Positions 74-23,169 of a stretch of 64,000 nt of DNA are shown here, one piece after another (position 1 is the first letter of the stretch; each line of letters begins with the position of its first letter). The notes below the pieces were generated by a model. The model searched no databases. It had not been told where the DNA came from and saw nothing but the letters and a program-made list of their open reading frames with translations. Source of the stretch: Arcobacter caeni (GTDB taxonomy: Bacteria; Campylobacterota; Campylobacteria; Campylobacterales; Arcobacteraceae); the NCBI RefSeq assembly GCF_003063245.1, contig NZ_MUXE01000010.1:1-64000 (forward strand). The letters are read 5' to 3'. A program made the position numbers and the translations under genes.

Positions 74-127
74 TTATTTTATCTCAGAATCTTTTAATTC
101 TGAGTATGAATTTATGTTACCTCTCCA
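74..127. repeat. Dispersed repeat copy A (IS end)
   Basis: This 54-base segment matches 19218-19271 with 52 identities; the first 45 bases are identical. It contains an 8-bp hairpin (CTCAGAAT/ATTCTGAG). Here it lies between the transposase start and a truncated gene. At 19218 it stands alone, without an IS body. Confidence 0.85.
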
Positions 128-467
128 TAGAACCATTTTCATATACATCATCAGTGAATCCTGGATATAGCTCTTCAAAACCTATTTTCATAGCTTCTAC
201 TGCTGCATCAAAGTCATCAAATGTACCGAAATCTACACAATGGTCATTGAAATATTTGTTATATTGGCTTATTTTGTAATAAGTAGTACTAAAATCTTGT
301 GGATTTCTGAAAGTTTTAAAAGTCACAAACTCATCATTTGTACCTTCTCTTTCAACTATTGCATTTGTGAGATTTTTATAATCTTCAAAAACTTGAGAGT
401 TTTTAACTTCATCTTTGAATATTTTTACATATCCAACATTTTTTGTATTTATTATTAATTTTTTCAT
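117..467 (-). CDS. Hypothetical protein, probably 3'-truncated by the IS
   Basis: A 116-residue soluble protein with no signal peptide or membrane segment and no family I recognise. Its last codons (SMER-stop) lie inside the IS-end repeat, so the natural C-terminus was probably lost and the stop codon is supplied by the insertion sequence. Residues around 70-95 (NKYFNDHCVDFGTFDD...) resemble part of the small protein at 56507-56896 (NKYFDEWCIQFETYDD), suggesting a distant relationship. Confidence 0.6.
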   Translation of the reverse strand: MKKLIINTKNVGYVKIFKDEVKNSQVFEDYKNLTNAIVEREGTNDEFVTFKTFRNPQDFSTTYYKISQYNKYFNDHCVDFGTFDDFDAAVEAMKIGFEELYPGFTDDVYENGSMER

Positions 468-3731: not shown

Positions 3732-4101
3732 TTAGCTTCCTTAATATACTATATATTTGTATATTATAGTACTTTTATAGTAAAATATACATAATTTTAG
3801 TATATAAATTTTTTTATTAAAGTTTATTTATCTAGTAATTTTAATTCCACTTCATTTAATGATTTTAAAGTATCTGCATCCAAATATTTCTTTACTGTTG
3901 TAAAACTTATTCATTTTATTTTAATGTAGAATTATTTAAATTCTTTGTCTGAAATAAGGTTACCACTCCAGGTAATATTTGACCTTAAAAATATGGTGAC
4001 ACAAAAACGGCACATTAACTAGCTAAATTCGATGGCTTGGTAAATTAGTGTTAAAGTTATTTTAATGTACAATAATTACTATTTAAAGCCTTGGAGAGTT
4101 T
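3732..4101. other. 370-base gap between accessory DNA and the first core gene
   Basis: The gap probably contains the hipA promoter (3732-3800, AT-rich with TATATT/TATAGT-like boxes). On the minus strand, about 3822-3905 reads ISFTTVKKYLDADTLKSLNE and on to a stop, which looks like the C-terminal scrap of a lost gene. At 3998-4017 is one copy of the short repeat seen at other island edges (core AAAAACGGCACAT). No intact gene is visible. Confidence 0.5.
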
Positions 4102-17485: not shown

Positions 17486-18553
17486 TTGCTTTTATATATA
17501 CACATTCCCTTTTGCGATAGTAAATGTTTTTACTGCGCTTTTAATTCATACACAGATAGATTTCACCTAAAACATGAATATATGAATGCATTAAAAAAAC
17601 AACTAAAAAATGACCTTGAAAATTATGTAATTAAACATAATAAAAAAATAGAAACTGTTTTCATAGGTGGAGGAACTCCCTCAACAATTAAGCCTTCTGA
17701 ATATGAAGAAATATTTGAAATGATAAAACCACATTTAGAAGAATTTACAGAAATTACAAGCGAAGCAAATCCAAATTCAGCATCCTATGAATGGCTTGAA
17801 AACATGAAAAAACTAGGCGTAAATAGAGTAAGTTTTGGAGTTCAAAGTTTTGATAATGATAAGCTGAAATTTCTTGGTCGAGCTCATAATAGTAATAGTG
17901 CTATAAAAGCTATACAAAATGCAAATAGTATAGGTTATAAAGGTATTAACTGCGATATAATATATGGTGTACAAAATGATACTATGGAAAGCTTAAAGAA
18001 GGATTTCGATACAGCTTTTTCGTTACCAATTACTCATCTTAGCGCGTATTCTTTAACCATTGAAGAAGGTACAAAATTCTTTGATAGATCTAGCGTAAAA
18101 ATTGATGATGAAGAGTTATCTTATGAGATTTTTGATTATATAAATAAACAAGGTTTTCATCAATATGAGATTTCAAATTTCGCAAAAAATAAAGAATCAG
18201 AATCAAAACACAACTATGGATATTGGCAACATAAAGAGTATTTAGGAGTAGGAGCTGGTGCTGTTGGATATGTGAATCAACATAGATATTATCCATCTAA
18301 AAGTTTAGAGGAATATATAAAAAATCCATTAGAATATGAGTTGGAAAAGATAGATGAAAATGATGTTAAAACAGAAAAAATCTTACTTGGATTTAGAAGT
18401 TTAAATGGAGTTGAAATATCACTTTTTAATGAAGAAGAAATGAAAAAAATAGATGATTTGATTCAATATGACAAAGTTTATATAAAAGAAAATAGGATTT
18501 TTAATAAAAATTTTCTACTTTCAGATGAATTAGCCTTATATATTTTGGATTAA
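17486..18553 (+). CDS. hemW: HemW-like radical SAM protein (annotated as coproporphyrinogen III oxidase family)
   Basis: 355 residues. It starts LLYIHIPFCDSKCFYCAFNS with the CxxxCxxC cluster motif, then GGGTPST and GVQSFD, all shared by HemN/HemW. It lacks the extra N-terminal region of true HemN, so HemW, a heme-handling chaperone, is the better call. The start is TTG, with an AGGATT site upstream. It is the last core gene before the accessory island. Confidence 0.85.
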   Translation: MLLYIHIPFCDSKCFYCAFNSYTDRFHLKHEYMNALKKQLKNDLENYVIKHNKKIETVFIGGGTPSTIKPSEYEEIFEMIKPHLEEFTEITSEANPNSASYEWLENMKKLGVNRVSFGVQSFDNDKLKFLGRAHNSNSAIKAIQNANSIGYKGINCDIIYGVQNDTMESLKKDFDTAFSLPITHLSAYSLTIEEGTKFFDRSSVKIDDEELSYEIFDYINKQGFHQYEISNFAKNKESESKHNYGYWQHKEYLGVGAGAVGYVNQHRYYPSKSLEEYIKNPLEYELEKIDENDVKTEKILLGFRSLNGVEISLFNEEEMKKIDDLIQYDKVYIKENRIFNKNFLLSDELALYILD

Positions 18554-18559
18554 TCTATT

Positions 18560-18594
18560 AATCAAACTTATAATTTGAAAATATAAGTTTGATT
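18560..18594. terminator. hemW terminator hairpin
   Basis: AATCAAACTTATA (18560-18572) is a perfect inverted repeat of TATAAGTTTGATT (18582-18594) with a 9-base loop, just after the hemW stop. A further AAAAAG-TCGCA-CTTTTT hairpin lies about 25 bases on. Confidence 0.65.
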
Positions 18595-18599
18595 TGTTG

Positions 18600-19249
18600 G
18601 TTTATTTTTAAATAAGCTTAAAAAGTCGCACTTTTTACAAAAAGTATTTGACATAAAATCGACACACTAAAATTTATTCTGTTATACTTATACAATAACA
18701 AAATTATGGATTTATTAGGTATGTATTGATAAGTGAAAACTATTTATATATAATTCTTTCATGTAAAACATAACGAAAATTAGTGAATTGGCTGGACTCC
18801 GTTTTTGCGTCGGGCCTTACTCCGACATTACTGTCCGGTTTCGACCGATTTTTGCATTAAATCAAAAAAACCTCCTAGAGAGGTTTTCCCTTTTGGGTTT
18901 TTTCAAGCCTATATTAAGGTTTGGAAAAGTTTAAAAATAAGGCTATAAATATTATCTATTTATTTTCAAGCCACCTGTAGTGTCTATTTGAAATTGATTA
19001 TATTTTTTGAAGGTAGATTAAATAAAGCTTTAAATATCTGATTTGATAGGTCTCTTTATTTGTTCCATAATCCCTTAATATTTGTGAAACTTTGTAGTTT
19101 TTACTTTTTGAACACTTTGTGGAACAGGGAAAATTAATATAAATACTTCGTGTTCCAAAAGTAAGAGGTTTTGGAAGAGAATGTTCAGATCTTTTTGTCC
19201 TATCTCTTAATGATAGATTATTTTATCTCAGAATCTTTTAATTCTGAGT
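18600..19249. other. 650-base gap at the island's left edge
   Basis: Contents: a second short hairpin (near 18620), a border repeat (18651-18667, core AAAATCGACACAC), a structured RNA candidate (18779-18905), and three scattered TGTTCCA/TGGAACA elements (about 19059, 19130 and 19150) that could be operator half-sites. The minus strand near 18990-19150 has an open stretch (STKCSKSKNYKVSQILRDYG), perhaps a decayed gene. I see no intact gene. Confidence 0.45.
18779..18905 (+). ncRNA. Candidate structured RNA ending in a terminator
   Basis: A GC-rich patch in very AT-rich DNA. It contains TCGG-GCCTTACT-CCGA, then CGGT-TTCG-ACCG with a UUCG tetraloop, then AAAACCTC-CTAG-AGAGGTTTT, which resembles an intrinsic terminator (followed by CCCTTTTGGGTTTTTT). 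No reading frame spans it. It matches no RNA family I know (not SRP, 6S, tmRNA or tRNA). The plus strand is chosen from the trailing T runs. An unusual sequence, but function is unknown. Confidence 0.4.
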
Positions 19250-19271
19250 ATGAATTTATGTTGCCACTCCA
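19218..19271. repeat. Dispersed repeat copy B (solo IS end)
   Basis: It matches 74-127 (52 of 54 bases). No transposase lies next to it, so it is a solo end or remnant. Its last bases provide the ATG (19250-19252) and first seven codons of the WYL gene frame. Confidence 0.85.
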
Positions 19272-20149
19272 ATAGAATAAATCAAATTTATGAAATGTTA
19301 AAAAACAATGTTCATGGTATGACAATAACTGAATTATCAAAAGAGTTAGATGTTAGTACAAAAACAATTCAAAGAGATTTGTATGAAGTATTAAATAGTT
19401 TTGGAGCTATAAAAGAGGGGCGAACTTAGAAAATAGACCCAAAACTACAAGAAGATAATCTAGCTTCAAATGAAAAATTAATTCTTGGTATTTTAGATGA
19501 AATGGCAAAGGGTGCTGGAGGAATATTTTATTCAAAAGCTCACTCACTTTTATCACAAGTTTCTCAACAGCTTGAACATCCAATTTTTACAAATATCAAT
19601 GGTGAATATTTAGAAGAAAAAAATATTGCTTTATTTGAACAAATAGAAAAAGCAATTAAAGAAAAAGTTGAAATAACTTTTGATTATGAAAAACATAACT
19701 TTCATGTAAAACCTCTAAAACTAGCTTTCTTTGATGGTTTTTGGTATTTATTGGCTCTTTATATAGGGGTAAAAGAAGTATTCAAAAAGTATCATCTTAA
19801 AAGTATTAAAAATATACAAAATTTGGAAGCAAACTTTGAGATACCTCAAATTGTAGAAGATAGATTAAGATACGCTAACTCTGTTTGGTTTAATCTTGAT
19901 GAACAATTTGTTGTAAGATTGTTTGTAGATAAAAGTATTAGAAAATACTTTGAAAGAAAGCCACTAAGAGGTCAAACTATTATGGGTGAAGATAGAGATG
20001 GCTCAATAGAAATAGAAATAAATATTACAAATGAAATGGAAATAATACCTTTAATCTTTTGGTATATACCATATATAAAAGTTCTTGAGCCTCAATGGTT
20101 AGCTGATATGGTAAAAGAAAGAGTTCAAGGGTATTTGAAAGAGATATAA
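19250..20149 (+). pseudogene. WYL-domain transcriptional regulator with an in-frame stop codon
   Basis: The frame reads from ATG 19250 through an HTH (RINQIYEMLKNNVHGMTITELSKELDVSTKTIQRDL) to a TAG at 19427-19429, then continues in the same frame to 20149 with a WYL domain (VEITFDYEKHNFHVKPLKLAFFDGFWYLLALY) and a C-terminal helical region. Total would be about 299 residues. WYL regulators bind small ligands and often control defence operons. A single nonsense codon separates DNA-binding and sensor halves. A downstream ATG at 19502 could give the 215-residue ligand half alone. The first seven codons come from the IS end. Confidence 0.75.
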
Positions 20150-20159
20150 TAAGCTAATT

Positions 20160-20189
20160 TTGTTATAATAACACAGGTTATCATAACAA
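20160..20189. promoter_or_regulatory. Palindromic operator candidate over the ATPase promoter
   Basis: TTGTTATAATAA (20160-20171) and TTATCATAACAA (20178-20189) are an inverted repeat with one mismatch and a 6-base spacer. The left arm includes a TATAAT -10 box (20164-20169). It lies 11 bases before the ATPase start. A repressor bound here would block the promoter; the WYL protein next door is the obvious candidate. This is inference. Confidence 0.5.
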
Positions 20190-20200
20190 AGGTTTTTATA

Positions 20201-21508
20201 ATGAAGTTTTACAATAGAGAAAAAGAATTAGAAGTTCTAAAAAAAGCAGATGGTTTAAAATCACAAAAATCAATAATGACAATGTTAATAGGTAGAAGAA
20301 GAGTTGGAAAAACGACTCTTGCTTTACAAAACTATTCAAATGAAAAGGTTTTATATTTTTTTGTTTCTAAAAAAAATGAACAACTACTTTGTGAAGAGTT
20401 CTGCAACGAAATAGTTGATAAATTAGAAGTTAAGATTTTTGGAAAACTTACAAAATTTGAAGAACTTTTTGAATATATTTTAGAGCTTGGTAAAACAAAA
20501 TCATTTACACTTATAATTGATGAGTTTCAAGAGTTTTTTAGAATAAATGAATCAATTTATTCATCTATGCAAAAACTTTGGGATTTAAATAAAGATAAAA
20601 CAAATATTCATCTTATAACTTGTGGTTCTGTTTACTCACTAATGAAAAAAATCTATGAAGATAATAAAGAACCGTTATTCGGAAGATGTGATTTTAAAAT
20701 AGATTTAAAACCTTTGAAAGTTAGTGTTTTAAAAGAGATTTTAAAAGATTATAATTCATATTCAAATGAGAATTTACTTGATTTTTATTTATTAACTGGT
20801 GGTGTTGCAAAATATATCGAACTATTTATTTTAAACAGTAGTTTTGATTTAAAATCAATGATAGATACAATAATTGACCCAAACTCAATGTTTTTAGAAG
20901 AGGGTAAAAATAGACTTATTGAAGAGTTTGGAAAAGAATATGGAACATATTTTTCAATTCTTGCACTTATCTCTGATTCTAAAACTTCAAGAAGTGAAAT
21001 AGAATCTATTTTAGAAAAAAACATTTCAGGACATTTATCACGACTTGAAAATGACTATAACATCATAAAATCAATTAAACCGATAAATGCAAAACCAAAC
21101 TCAAAAGTTCAAAAATATGAAATAGTAGATAACTTTTTAGCTTTTTGGTTTAGGTTTATTTTTAAATATCAATCACTTATTGAAGCTGAAAATTTTGATA
21201 GATTAAAAGAGATTATTTATAGAGATATTTCAACTTTTAAAGGAAAATTCCTTGAAAAACTATTTGTTGAACTTTTAAAAGAGAAACAAACTTTTACAAC
21301 TATTGGTTCATATTGGGAGCGAAATAATCAAAACGAAATAGATATAGTTGCTATTGATAATATTGATAAAAAACTTTTAATTTGTGAAGTAAAACTGAAT
21401 GAAAAACGACTAAGTTATAATGATTTAGTTTTAAAATCTCAAAAATTAGTTCAAGAATATAAAGGTCATGAGATTGAATATAAGCTTTTATCTGTGAAAG
21501 ATATTTAG
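20201..21508 (+). CDS. AAA ATPase with C-terminal PD-(D/E)XK-type nuclease domain (DUF234 family)
   Basis: 435 residues. Walker A GRRRVGKTT (31-39), Walker B LIIDEFQEFF (104-113), a sensor TCGS, a middle winged-helix-like part, and a C-terminal ATPase-linked nuclease fold with EIDIVAIDN then ICEVKLN, the D and ExK residues of PD-(D/E)XK enzymes. This archaeal-type ATPase family is found in accessory DNA and is suspected of roles in defence or mobile elements. Neighbours are the WYL regulator and a convergent Fic gene. Confidence 0.85.
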   Translation: MKFYNREKELEVLKKADGLKSQKSIMTMLIGRRRVGKTTLALQNYSNEKVLYFFVSKKNEQLLCEEFCNEIVDKLEVKIFGKLTKFEELFEYILELGKTKSFTLIIDEFQEFFRINESIYSSMQKLWDLNKDKTNIHLITCGSVYSLMKKIYEDNKEPLFGRCDFKIDLKPLKVSVLKEILKDYNSYSNENLLDFYLLTGGVAKYIELFILNSSFDLKSMIDTIIDPNSMFLEEGKNRLIEEFGKEYGTYFSILALISDSKTSRSEIESILEKNISGHLSRLENDYNIIKSIKPINAKPNSKVQKYEIVDNFLAFWFRFIFKYQSLIEAENFDRLKEIIYRDISTFKGKFLEKLFVELLKEKQTFTTIGSYWERNNQNEIDIVAIDNIDKKLLICEVKLNEKRLSYNDLVLKSQKLVQEYKGHEIEYKLLSVKDI

Positions 21509-21591
21509 ATAATTTCTCATGGATACCCTTTCCATTATTACTCCAGAATTGTTTTTCCTGAAGTATATTAAATTTAAAAAATATCCTTAAC

Positions 21592-21623
21592 TTAAATAAA
21601 ACTGTTTTTCCAGTTTTATTTAA
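21592..21623. terminator. Bidirectional terminator between ATPase and Fic genes
   Basis: TTAAATAAAACTG (21592-21604) is a perfect 13-bp inverted repeat of CAGTTTTATTTAA (21611-21623) with a TTTTTC loop, between convergent genes. Confidence 0.65.
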
Positions 21624-21708
21624 AAAGTGTTCAAGTGTGAGCATTTTTTGCAAATTACTTAGCTTGGATTCAAATTAATATCTTCAATAATTGCTATTAA
21701 TTTCATCT

Positions 21709-22836
21709 CTAGCAATCGATATCTACAAAATAACTAGTTCCTCGTCCTGTTGTTGCAGGAGTTTGTTTTATACATCCTAGTTCAAGTAATTGTTTTAAAT
21801 CATTAGTCGCTGTTGAAGGTGAAGCTTTTGAAATTGCAACATATTTTTTCTTAGTTAATCCACCTTCAAAGTTTTTAAATCCTGAATCAAGGATTTTATT
21901 TAATACTTTTATTTGTCTTGAATTTAATTCTTTATCTCTATGCTTATCCCAAAAACTAGTTTTCTCTTTAATATATTGAAGTCCTATTTGGGCTTCTTGC
22001 AATGATTTTAGTAATGTTTGTAAAAAGAATTTTAACCAAGCTGTAATATCAAGTGGATTTTCTTTTATTCTAAATCCTGTTGTTTGTTCAAGAACTTCGT
22101 AGTAAGTTTTTTTATTTTCATATATAGTTTTTGAAATAGAGTATATTTTTGAATAATATGATTTTTCAACACGGGCTAGTACATATTTACATATAGTTCT
22201 TGAAATTCTTCCATTACCATCATCTAAGGGATGTATTATTAAAAACCATAGGTGAGCGATTGCTGCTTTTATTATTGAGTCTTCTGTTTTATTAAACCAA
22301 TCAAAGAATTCAACTAAATAATCAAAAAGTTCATCATGTGGTGGAGCTTGATAATATATAACTTCTTTAGGACCTCCACCACCAATTATCATTTCATAAT
22401 GACCTCTAGTAAGACCTATATTAATTATTTCACCTTTATTATTTCGACCTGTTGGAAATACAGATGCATGCCATGCAAAAATTCTTTCAATATCTAAATC
22501 TTTTTCATAGTTTGTACATGCGTCAATTAATATATTAACTAATCCATCAGTTACATAATCAGTATTTGCATATCTATCAAAGCCTAGCTTTTTAGCGATA
22601 GATTTTCTTACACTATCTCTATTTAGAAACTCACCTTCAATAGCAGAACTATTTATTACTTCATCAGCATAAGAATCTTTGAGCTTTTCTTCTAGTATTT
22701 CTTTTGATACAAAAGATACAGTACTTGATAAAGAACCTTGTAGGAACACAATATCTTGTATCAAAGAATCTAGTTCTTCTTTATCATATGTAAAATTAGG
22801 ATAATTATCAAATTCCCATATCCATTTTTTTTTCAT
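21709..22836 (-). CDS. Fic family protein with N-terminal inhibitory motif and C-terminal winged helix
   Basis: 375 residues. The active-site motif is HPLDDGNGRISR (202-213), close to HPFxxGNGRxxR but with leucine in place of phenylalanine. SSAIEG (63-68) is the inhibitory (S/T)xxxE(G/N) motif on an N-terminal helix. The C-terminal 80 residues look like a winged helix (ISKASPSTATNDLKQLLELG). Fic proteins AMP-modify targets and can be toxins or stress regulators; here self-inhibition is built in. The gene is convergent with the ATPase gene and closes the island. Confidence 0.87.
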   Translation of the reverse strand: MKKKWIWEFDNYPNFTYDKEELDSLIQDIVFLQGSLSSTVSFVSKEILEEKLKDSYADEVINSSAIEGEFLNRDSVRKSIAKKLGFDRYANTDYVTDGLVNILIDACTNYEKDLDIERIFAWHASVFPTGRNNKGEIINIGLTRGHYEMIIGGGGPKEVIYYQAPPHDELFDYLVEFFDWFNKTEDSIIKAAIAHLWFLIIHPLDDGNGRISRTICKYVLARVEKSYYSKIYSISKTIYENKKTYYEVLEQTTGFRIKENPLDITAWLKFFLQTLLKSLQEAQIGLQYIKEKTSFWDKHRDKELNSRQIKVLNKILDSGFKNFEGGLTKKKYVAISKASPSTATNDLKQLLELGCIKQTPATTGRGTSYFVDIDC

Positions 22837-23169
22837 TTAAAATACCTTTTTTTACTTTATTATAATAGATTTTGTGCTTAAAGGCAATATTATCGCACAA
22901 TATATTATGCGTAAAATTTGTAATATCACACATTTGGAATTTGAAAGTAGTTGTCTGAAATCTTATATGTTGCATTAATATTAAAGGGAACTATATCCTT
23001 AGGAATAAATCTTCTGCTTTTACACAAATAGTTTATTATAAATATATACCCAATAAATTATTTTAGATTTTTAAGCACAAAATCGACACATAGTTTTATA
23101 CTGCTCCATAAATTCGTAGTTTATATTAAACTTATAATATAATCCAAACTTTTAAAAGGTAAAAACTAA
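22837..23169. other. 333-base gap at the island's right edge
   Basis: It holds the Fic promoter side, then AT-rich DNA with no gene I can support, a border repeat at 23077-23090 (core AAAATCGACACAT), and the prmC promoter: two overlapping TATAAT boxes at 23133-23143, about 30 bases before the ATG. Confidence 0.55.

Follow-up and report, generated by a model that had tools for sequence, protein, structure and literature searches.

A hairpin-bearing transposon end at two broken genes of Arcobacter caeni: an IS3-family insertion sequence and, probably, a related element without transposase

The occurrence of nearly the same 54-base sequence at the breakpoints of two different genes raises the question of whether one mobile element altered both. 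The window, that is the whole 64,000-base stretch analysed, comprises bases 1-64000 of contig 1 of the Arcobacter caeni genome (G000; 2.4 Mb in 59 contigs). The two copies, copy A at 74-127 (minus strand) and copy B at 19218-19271, are identical at 52 of 54 bases (96% over 54 bases by BLAST), and a 34-base core of hairpin and ATG is found exactly at 83-116 and 19227-19260, the only two sites in the window, while the core pattern occurred in none of 100 shuffles. The initial annotation was therefore right in describing two copies with a common hairpin and tip. Copy A is a terminal module made of the hairpin and the inverted repeat TGGAGAGGTAAC; copy B has the same module with the tip variant TGGAGTGGCAAC, of which one further example, in G020, has no hairpin. 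Both genes, a small gene at 117-467 and a WYL regulator gene, are broken exactly at the outer base of their respective copy. The same annotation suggested that a single element was present at both sites and had edited the two genes in opposite ways, lending a stop codon to one and a start codon to the other. The donated stop and start are real, but a common element is not supported, the tip of copy B being a variant and its 120-base end recurring in another genus (G090); nor is an editing of the WYL gene into a new working form, as its frame stops after 59 codons.

Copy A belongs to the left end, on the orfA side, of an ordinary IS3-family insertion sequence (IS) present in multiple copies; this end covers bases 1-127 on the minus strand with base 127 as the outer tip. 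When the genome was searched for the sequence and its flanks were listed, window bases 1-127 turned up without a change at 12 contig ends, that of the window included, beyond which the sequences diverge. Identity over 127 bases at 12 contig ends is what would be expected if the assembler broke at a repeat and left 127-base overlaps, which places the tip at base 127. From base 56, the IS3 orfA reads towards the window edge and beyond it, and its first residues, MRQSKYSQEFKDSTVQLI, are encoded at 12 of 12 contig ends. The right end of the IS opens contigs C24 and C25, with the last 36 residues of orfB (97% identity) followed by GTTACCTCTCCA. The body of the IS is absent from the G000 assembly, in which only the first 18 orfA and last 36 orfB residues are assembled. 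A complete relative is present in the sister species G022 (L058:1509-2788; 1,280 bp, orfA of 99 aa, orfB of 273 aa), without a target duplication; its orfB belongs to the IS3 family (E 5.8e-93, NCBIfam), and Pfam likewise recognizes IS3-type orfA and orfB. A fixed tip pattern applied to the 14 fetched loci with both orfs located paired TG...CA tips in 12 of them, 1,280-1,313 bp apart, and half of these 12 have a 3-base duplication. The element thus resembles the IS3 family in its orfA with HTH_Tnp_1 and orfB with the rve core (both read on the relative), in its TG...CA ends, its length of about 1.28 kb and the 3-base duplication in half of the copies, and it differs by a conserved hairpin of 8 bp that, at the left end, separates the inverted repeat from orfA.

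A third and more decayed end of a related IS, composed of the hairpin region and the tip TGGAGTGGTAACCTTATTTCAGAC, lies at 3916-3970, where the nhmmer match is weak (E 0.015) and the tip has 5 mismatches in 24. On its inward side is an IS-type leader, TTATTCAT, but no orfA could be seen by eye.

The gene cut by the IS at copy A (117-467, minus strand; no Pfam match) reads through 113 host codons and then M-E-R-stop, which the IS tip supplies except for the opening base of the M codon, a host base. It matches a 141-aa protein of G022 (L073) up to residue 113, and L073 extends 28 residues beyond the breakpoint; about 28 codons have been lost and M-E-R-stop gained from the IS. The claim that this gene ends in the IS tip with an IS-made stop thus stands. 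As the gene is carried by only 2 of 31 genus genomes, its own included, the position of this breakpoint is based on one relative. A search of the G000 assembly, run without a positive control, did not find the displaced 3' end of the gene, and the insertion at copy A may have come with a deletion. Such a stop is not peculiar to copy A, because 4 of the 12 left ends provide one: frames of 116, 332, 128 and 149 codons (C1, C20, C57 and C4) terminate inside the IS at offsets 8, 51, 8 and 13, respectively, with all three frames used. Read inward, the module has a stop in all three frames within its 54 bases.

At copy B, the frame begun by the element (19250-19429, plus strand) draws seven codons, counting the ATG, plus one extra base from the element before continuing in WYL codons, and it meets an in-frame stop at 19427-19429, after 59 codons. 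Because of this stop the WYL gene is a pseudogene, and no full WYL protein can be made from the copy B ATG. The pseudogene (19272-20149, plus strand) lacks its first 14 codons and contains the internal stop, with Pfam WYL and WCX matches on 19502-20149. Eight WYL matches (at least 77% identity, five genomes) start at 19270 or 19271, which is the tip, and none crosses it; weaker and shorter matches outside these eight cover inner parts only. The gene is intact in relatives, and seven of the eight, when read, had 14 native residues and no IS sequence, as opposed to the M-N-L-C-C-H-S that the element supplies in the window. The comparison of both genes with intact relatives, proposed at the outset, therefore places the breakpoints at the tips. 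As for the start codon, an in-frame ATG and seven codons are indeed donated to the WYL frame, but the frame is closed after 59 codons, and the notion of a regulator edited into a new working form fails for that reason.

The initial annotation also observed that no IS body is present at copy B. This is correct, but the bases to the left of copy B are a repeat (18999-19176), common to many genus genomes and seven plasmid records, that elsewhere is joined to the same kind of end. The unit formed by the inner end of the repeat, a connecting segment, the hairpin and the tip (19152-19271) matches G090:C12:14670-14788, from another genus, at 90% over all 120 bases, junction included. None of the 104 genomes gave another match of full length, the next best being in G020 (92 of 120 bases at 83%). 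An 83-base query consisting of repeat end, hairpin and tip matched as one piece at 28 or more places in at least 15 of the 104 family genomes (query start at 12 or below, end at 68 or above, with at most 8 candidates per genome scored), and any match at all was obtained in 39 of the 104. At the 28 places, the hairpin and tip join another repeat and not orfA directly; in copy B, the hairpin meets the other side of the repeat unit than it does in the 83-base query. In G085, a module joined to the repeat is identical to copy A at 54 of 54 bases.

One complete element of this kind was found, in the same genome as the 120-base match (L141:8077-9841, which is G090:C12:8077-9841). It is 1,765 bases long and has IS3-type ends, TGGAAAGGTAAC...GTTACCTCTCCA, with a hairpin on the left, an imperfect hairpin on the right and GTA on both sides as a 3-base duplication. 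Its cargo is a WYL-type regulator, so labelled from its sequence as NCBIfam gave no family, and a 110-aa frame. No IS3 orf was detected inside it by tblastn, and two orfB fragments lie elsewhere in L141. Among 40 hairpin hits tested, a set that includes overlapping fetches, IS copies and left ends, only one gave a left tip with a matching duplication; 31 of the 40 had a tip by pattern, at least two of those being misread. Copy B itself is a single end, the other (left) end of its element not being found in the window.

The 28 repeat-joined places, the 120-base match in G090 and the complete element in L141 together make a transposase-less relative likelier at copy B than a shortened IS, and on sequence grounds copies A and B probably stem from different elements. 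The competing view, that copy B is the remnant of a complete IS from this family whose body was deleted and that the repeat is an unrelated neighbour, seems unlikely to us. It would account for the 52 of 54 identical bases and draws on the presence of IS remnants in the window (3916-3970), and tips with TGGAGTGG are also borne by true IS copies in G094, G083 and L096. A chance neighbour, however, is difficult to reconcile with a repeat-hairpin junction that another genus preserves, at 90% identity along 120 bases.

We thus favour, with good though incomplete confidence, the reading in which copy A is the end of a multi-copy IS3-family IS inserted in the small gene and copy B the end of a related, transposase-less element inserted in the WYL gene. 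Points that weigh against it are the small yield of the hairpin hits (one of 40), the single full-length counterpart of the 120-base unit, the left end missing at copy B, which leaves no target duplication to compare there, the 3' end of the copy A gene that did not turn up, and an IS body lacking in the assembly. An IS3-family IS would have jumped into the 3' part of the small gene at 117-467, whose reading frame now continues into the IS tip as far as its TAA. A second element, devoid of transposase and carrying the same terminal module of IS3-type inverted repeat and hairpin, would have landed in codon 15 of the WYL regulator gene. Since its terminal module is the same, an IS3 transposase can presumably move this element in trans. 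The rest of the element and the start of the WYL gene may later have been lost, and the WYL gene would have gathered its internal stop; the junction at copy B and the stop can be read directly in the window, and the order of loss and stop is a reconstruction. Mobile insertion cassettes (e.g. MIC231) are defined by IS ends flanking passenger DNA without a transposase, and the one complete example, L141:8077-9841, is like these and MITEs in this respect. It differs from them in that the ends have a hairpin in common with the left end of the IS, and in that such ends often lead inward to a family-wide repeat of roughly 75-105 bases.

The hairpin occurs in both kinds of element. At copy A (83-104), it has a perfect 8-bp stem and a 6-base loop, with a fold z of -3.50. 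Of 38 distinct hairpin copies sorted by a pattern rule, 23 have the repeat as inward neighbour, 9 the IS orfA leader and 6 something else; by eye, at least four of these six are IS-like and one is the G090 unit resembling copy B. Copies A and B add nothing to the count, as they have the same 44-base stretch as G085. Across the 38 copies, stem pairing is kept in 83.6% of cells, compared with 79.0% in shuffled and at most 48.3% in slid alignments. One pair of columns, 12-31, clearly co-varies (CG in 16 copies, UA in 13) and accounts for 13 of 18 double changes; at the two innermost positions, pairing is lost in 10 and 17 of the 38 copies. The structure is thus largely kept in both IS and repeat-joined copies, suggesting a role in movement or in shielding from outside reading rather than in the control of orfA only. 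A transcription terminator was also considered for the module and was set aside by eye, the stem being AT-rich with no T run after it.

The repeat beside copy B has company of its own. It lies 3' of same-strand frames at 29 of 42 sites, six of which are the sequences used to build the repeat profile; random draws avoiding frames (n = 200) gave a mean of 13.1 and a maximum of 21, and the same sites with strands flipped gave 21. The bias is modest. In L083, L086 and L091, the repeat follows the coding end of a tyrosine recombinase, that of L083 being a protein of 195 aa (Pfam PF00589) that scores below the cut-off of all nine NCBIfam models matched. With 50.3 bits against a TIGR02249 cut-off of 265, it was rejected as an integron integrase IntI. 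Folding of two repeat sequences gave a z of -0.34 for L074 (74 of 200 shuffles as good) and of -1.88 for window bases 19083-19176 (7 of 200). These two sequences lend no clear support to an attC identity, the first folding no better than its shuffles and the second weakly better. Rfam gave three matches on 18500-19300, all below gathering scores. The repeat and recombinase together look like a cassette system, similar to integron cassette arrays in the placement of the repeat 3' of same-strand frames (29/42) and in the tyrosine recombinase beside some copies, and different from them in that the two folded repeats are not clearly attC-like and the L083 recombinase falls below the NCBIfam cut-offs.

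A short tyrosine recombinase gene adjoins the repeat in L083 (2989-4564), L086 and L092. Also beside the repeat in L083 is a reverse transcriptase resembling that of retron St85, with a score of 83.8 bits where the NCBIfam cut-off is 235; in L086, genes spaced by the repeat come next.

A wider proposal can be imagined for the Arcobacteraceae, in which an IS3-family transposase would move in trans hairpin-ended, transposase-less units carrying the recombinase-linked repeat downstream of their cargo; a transposon end and a system of site-specific cassettes would then act on the same DNA, with copy B as a fossil. We regard this generalization as speculative and rather improbable.

Could the IS ends have been retained by selection, because they supply useful starts and stops and so edit genes in opposite directions? 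The junction at copy B is in frame, and two further IS copies start long outward frames from an IS ATG (297 codons in C56 and 181 in C16), the former (L005) looking, we presume, like a fragment of a leucine-rich-repeat/kinase protein. In-frame cases are to be expected, however, since the module read outward has an ATG in two frames of three; no clear ribosome-binding site could be seen by eye before either ATG, and at copy B a stop interrupts the WYL frame after 59 codons. Selection of this sort is very doubtful. That the 54-base match is due to chance or faulty assembly is hardly credible: copy A does lie within an overlap at a contig end, but none of the 100 shuffles reproduced the core, and G094 and G083, each assembled as a single contig, have whole IS copies with this kind of end.

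Copy A, then, represents ordinary IS damage and copy B, most likely, what decay has left of one end of a related element. It is not unusual for IS ends to create stops and starts, and the common hairpin end is the more interesting part. No such elements are named in the titles or abstract beginnings of the Arcobacter/Aliarcobacter papers among the matches listed, and the combination of Arcobacter, IS3 family and genome returned nothing, although they may still be in print. A 54-base end common to an IS and to transposase-less elements across the family is a searchable mark for what the IS moves besides itself, and can usefully mark a group of mobile elements that has received little study. There is also a caution for gene calling, as a frame begun by a transposon end may resemble a regulator while being part of a pseudogene.

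Copy B is located in an island of about 4.6 kb (18575-23150, right edge approximate) between two genes that are adjacent in relatives. In L183 and L187, the two relatives with frames listed, these genes, which we take to be hemW before the copy B region and prmC after it, are 52 bases apart; here the distance is about 4.6 kb. Homology to 28 compared relatives stops at or before base 18574. The island holds the WYL pseudogene, an ATPase and a Fic-like gene (Fic below the NCBIfam cut-off), and the ATPase is 97% identical to one adjoining a WYL gene in G009, one of seven WYL loci checked. A stretch of 67 bases at 18790-18856 matches, at 87%, sequence upstream of an IstA-like gene in G023, presumably of the IS21 family, and is also found in G028 and G022; from this match, it can be read as a further solo IS end in the island of copy B.

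A last observation concerns the right end of contig C16 (L004), where the IS tip is followed by TACCTCTCCA, a repetition of the last 10 bases of the tip with one base skipped at the joint, as if one IS copy had landed within the tip of another.
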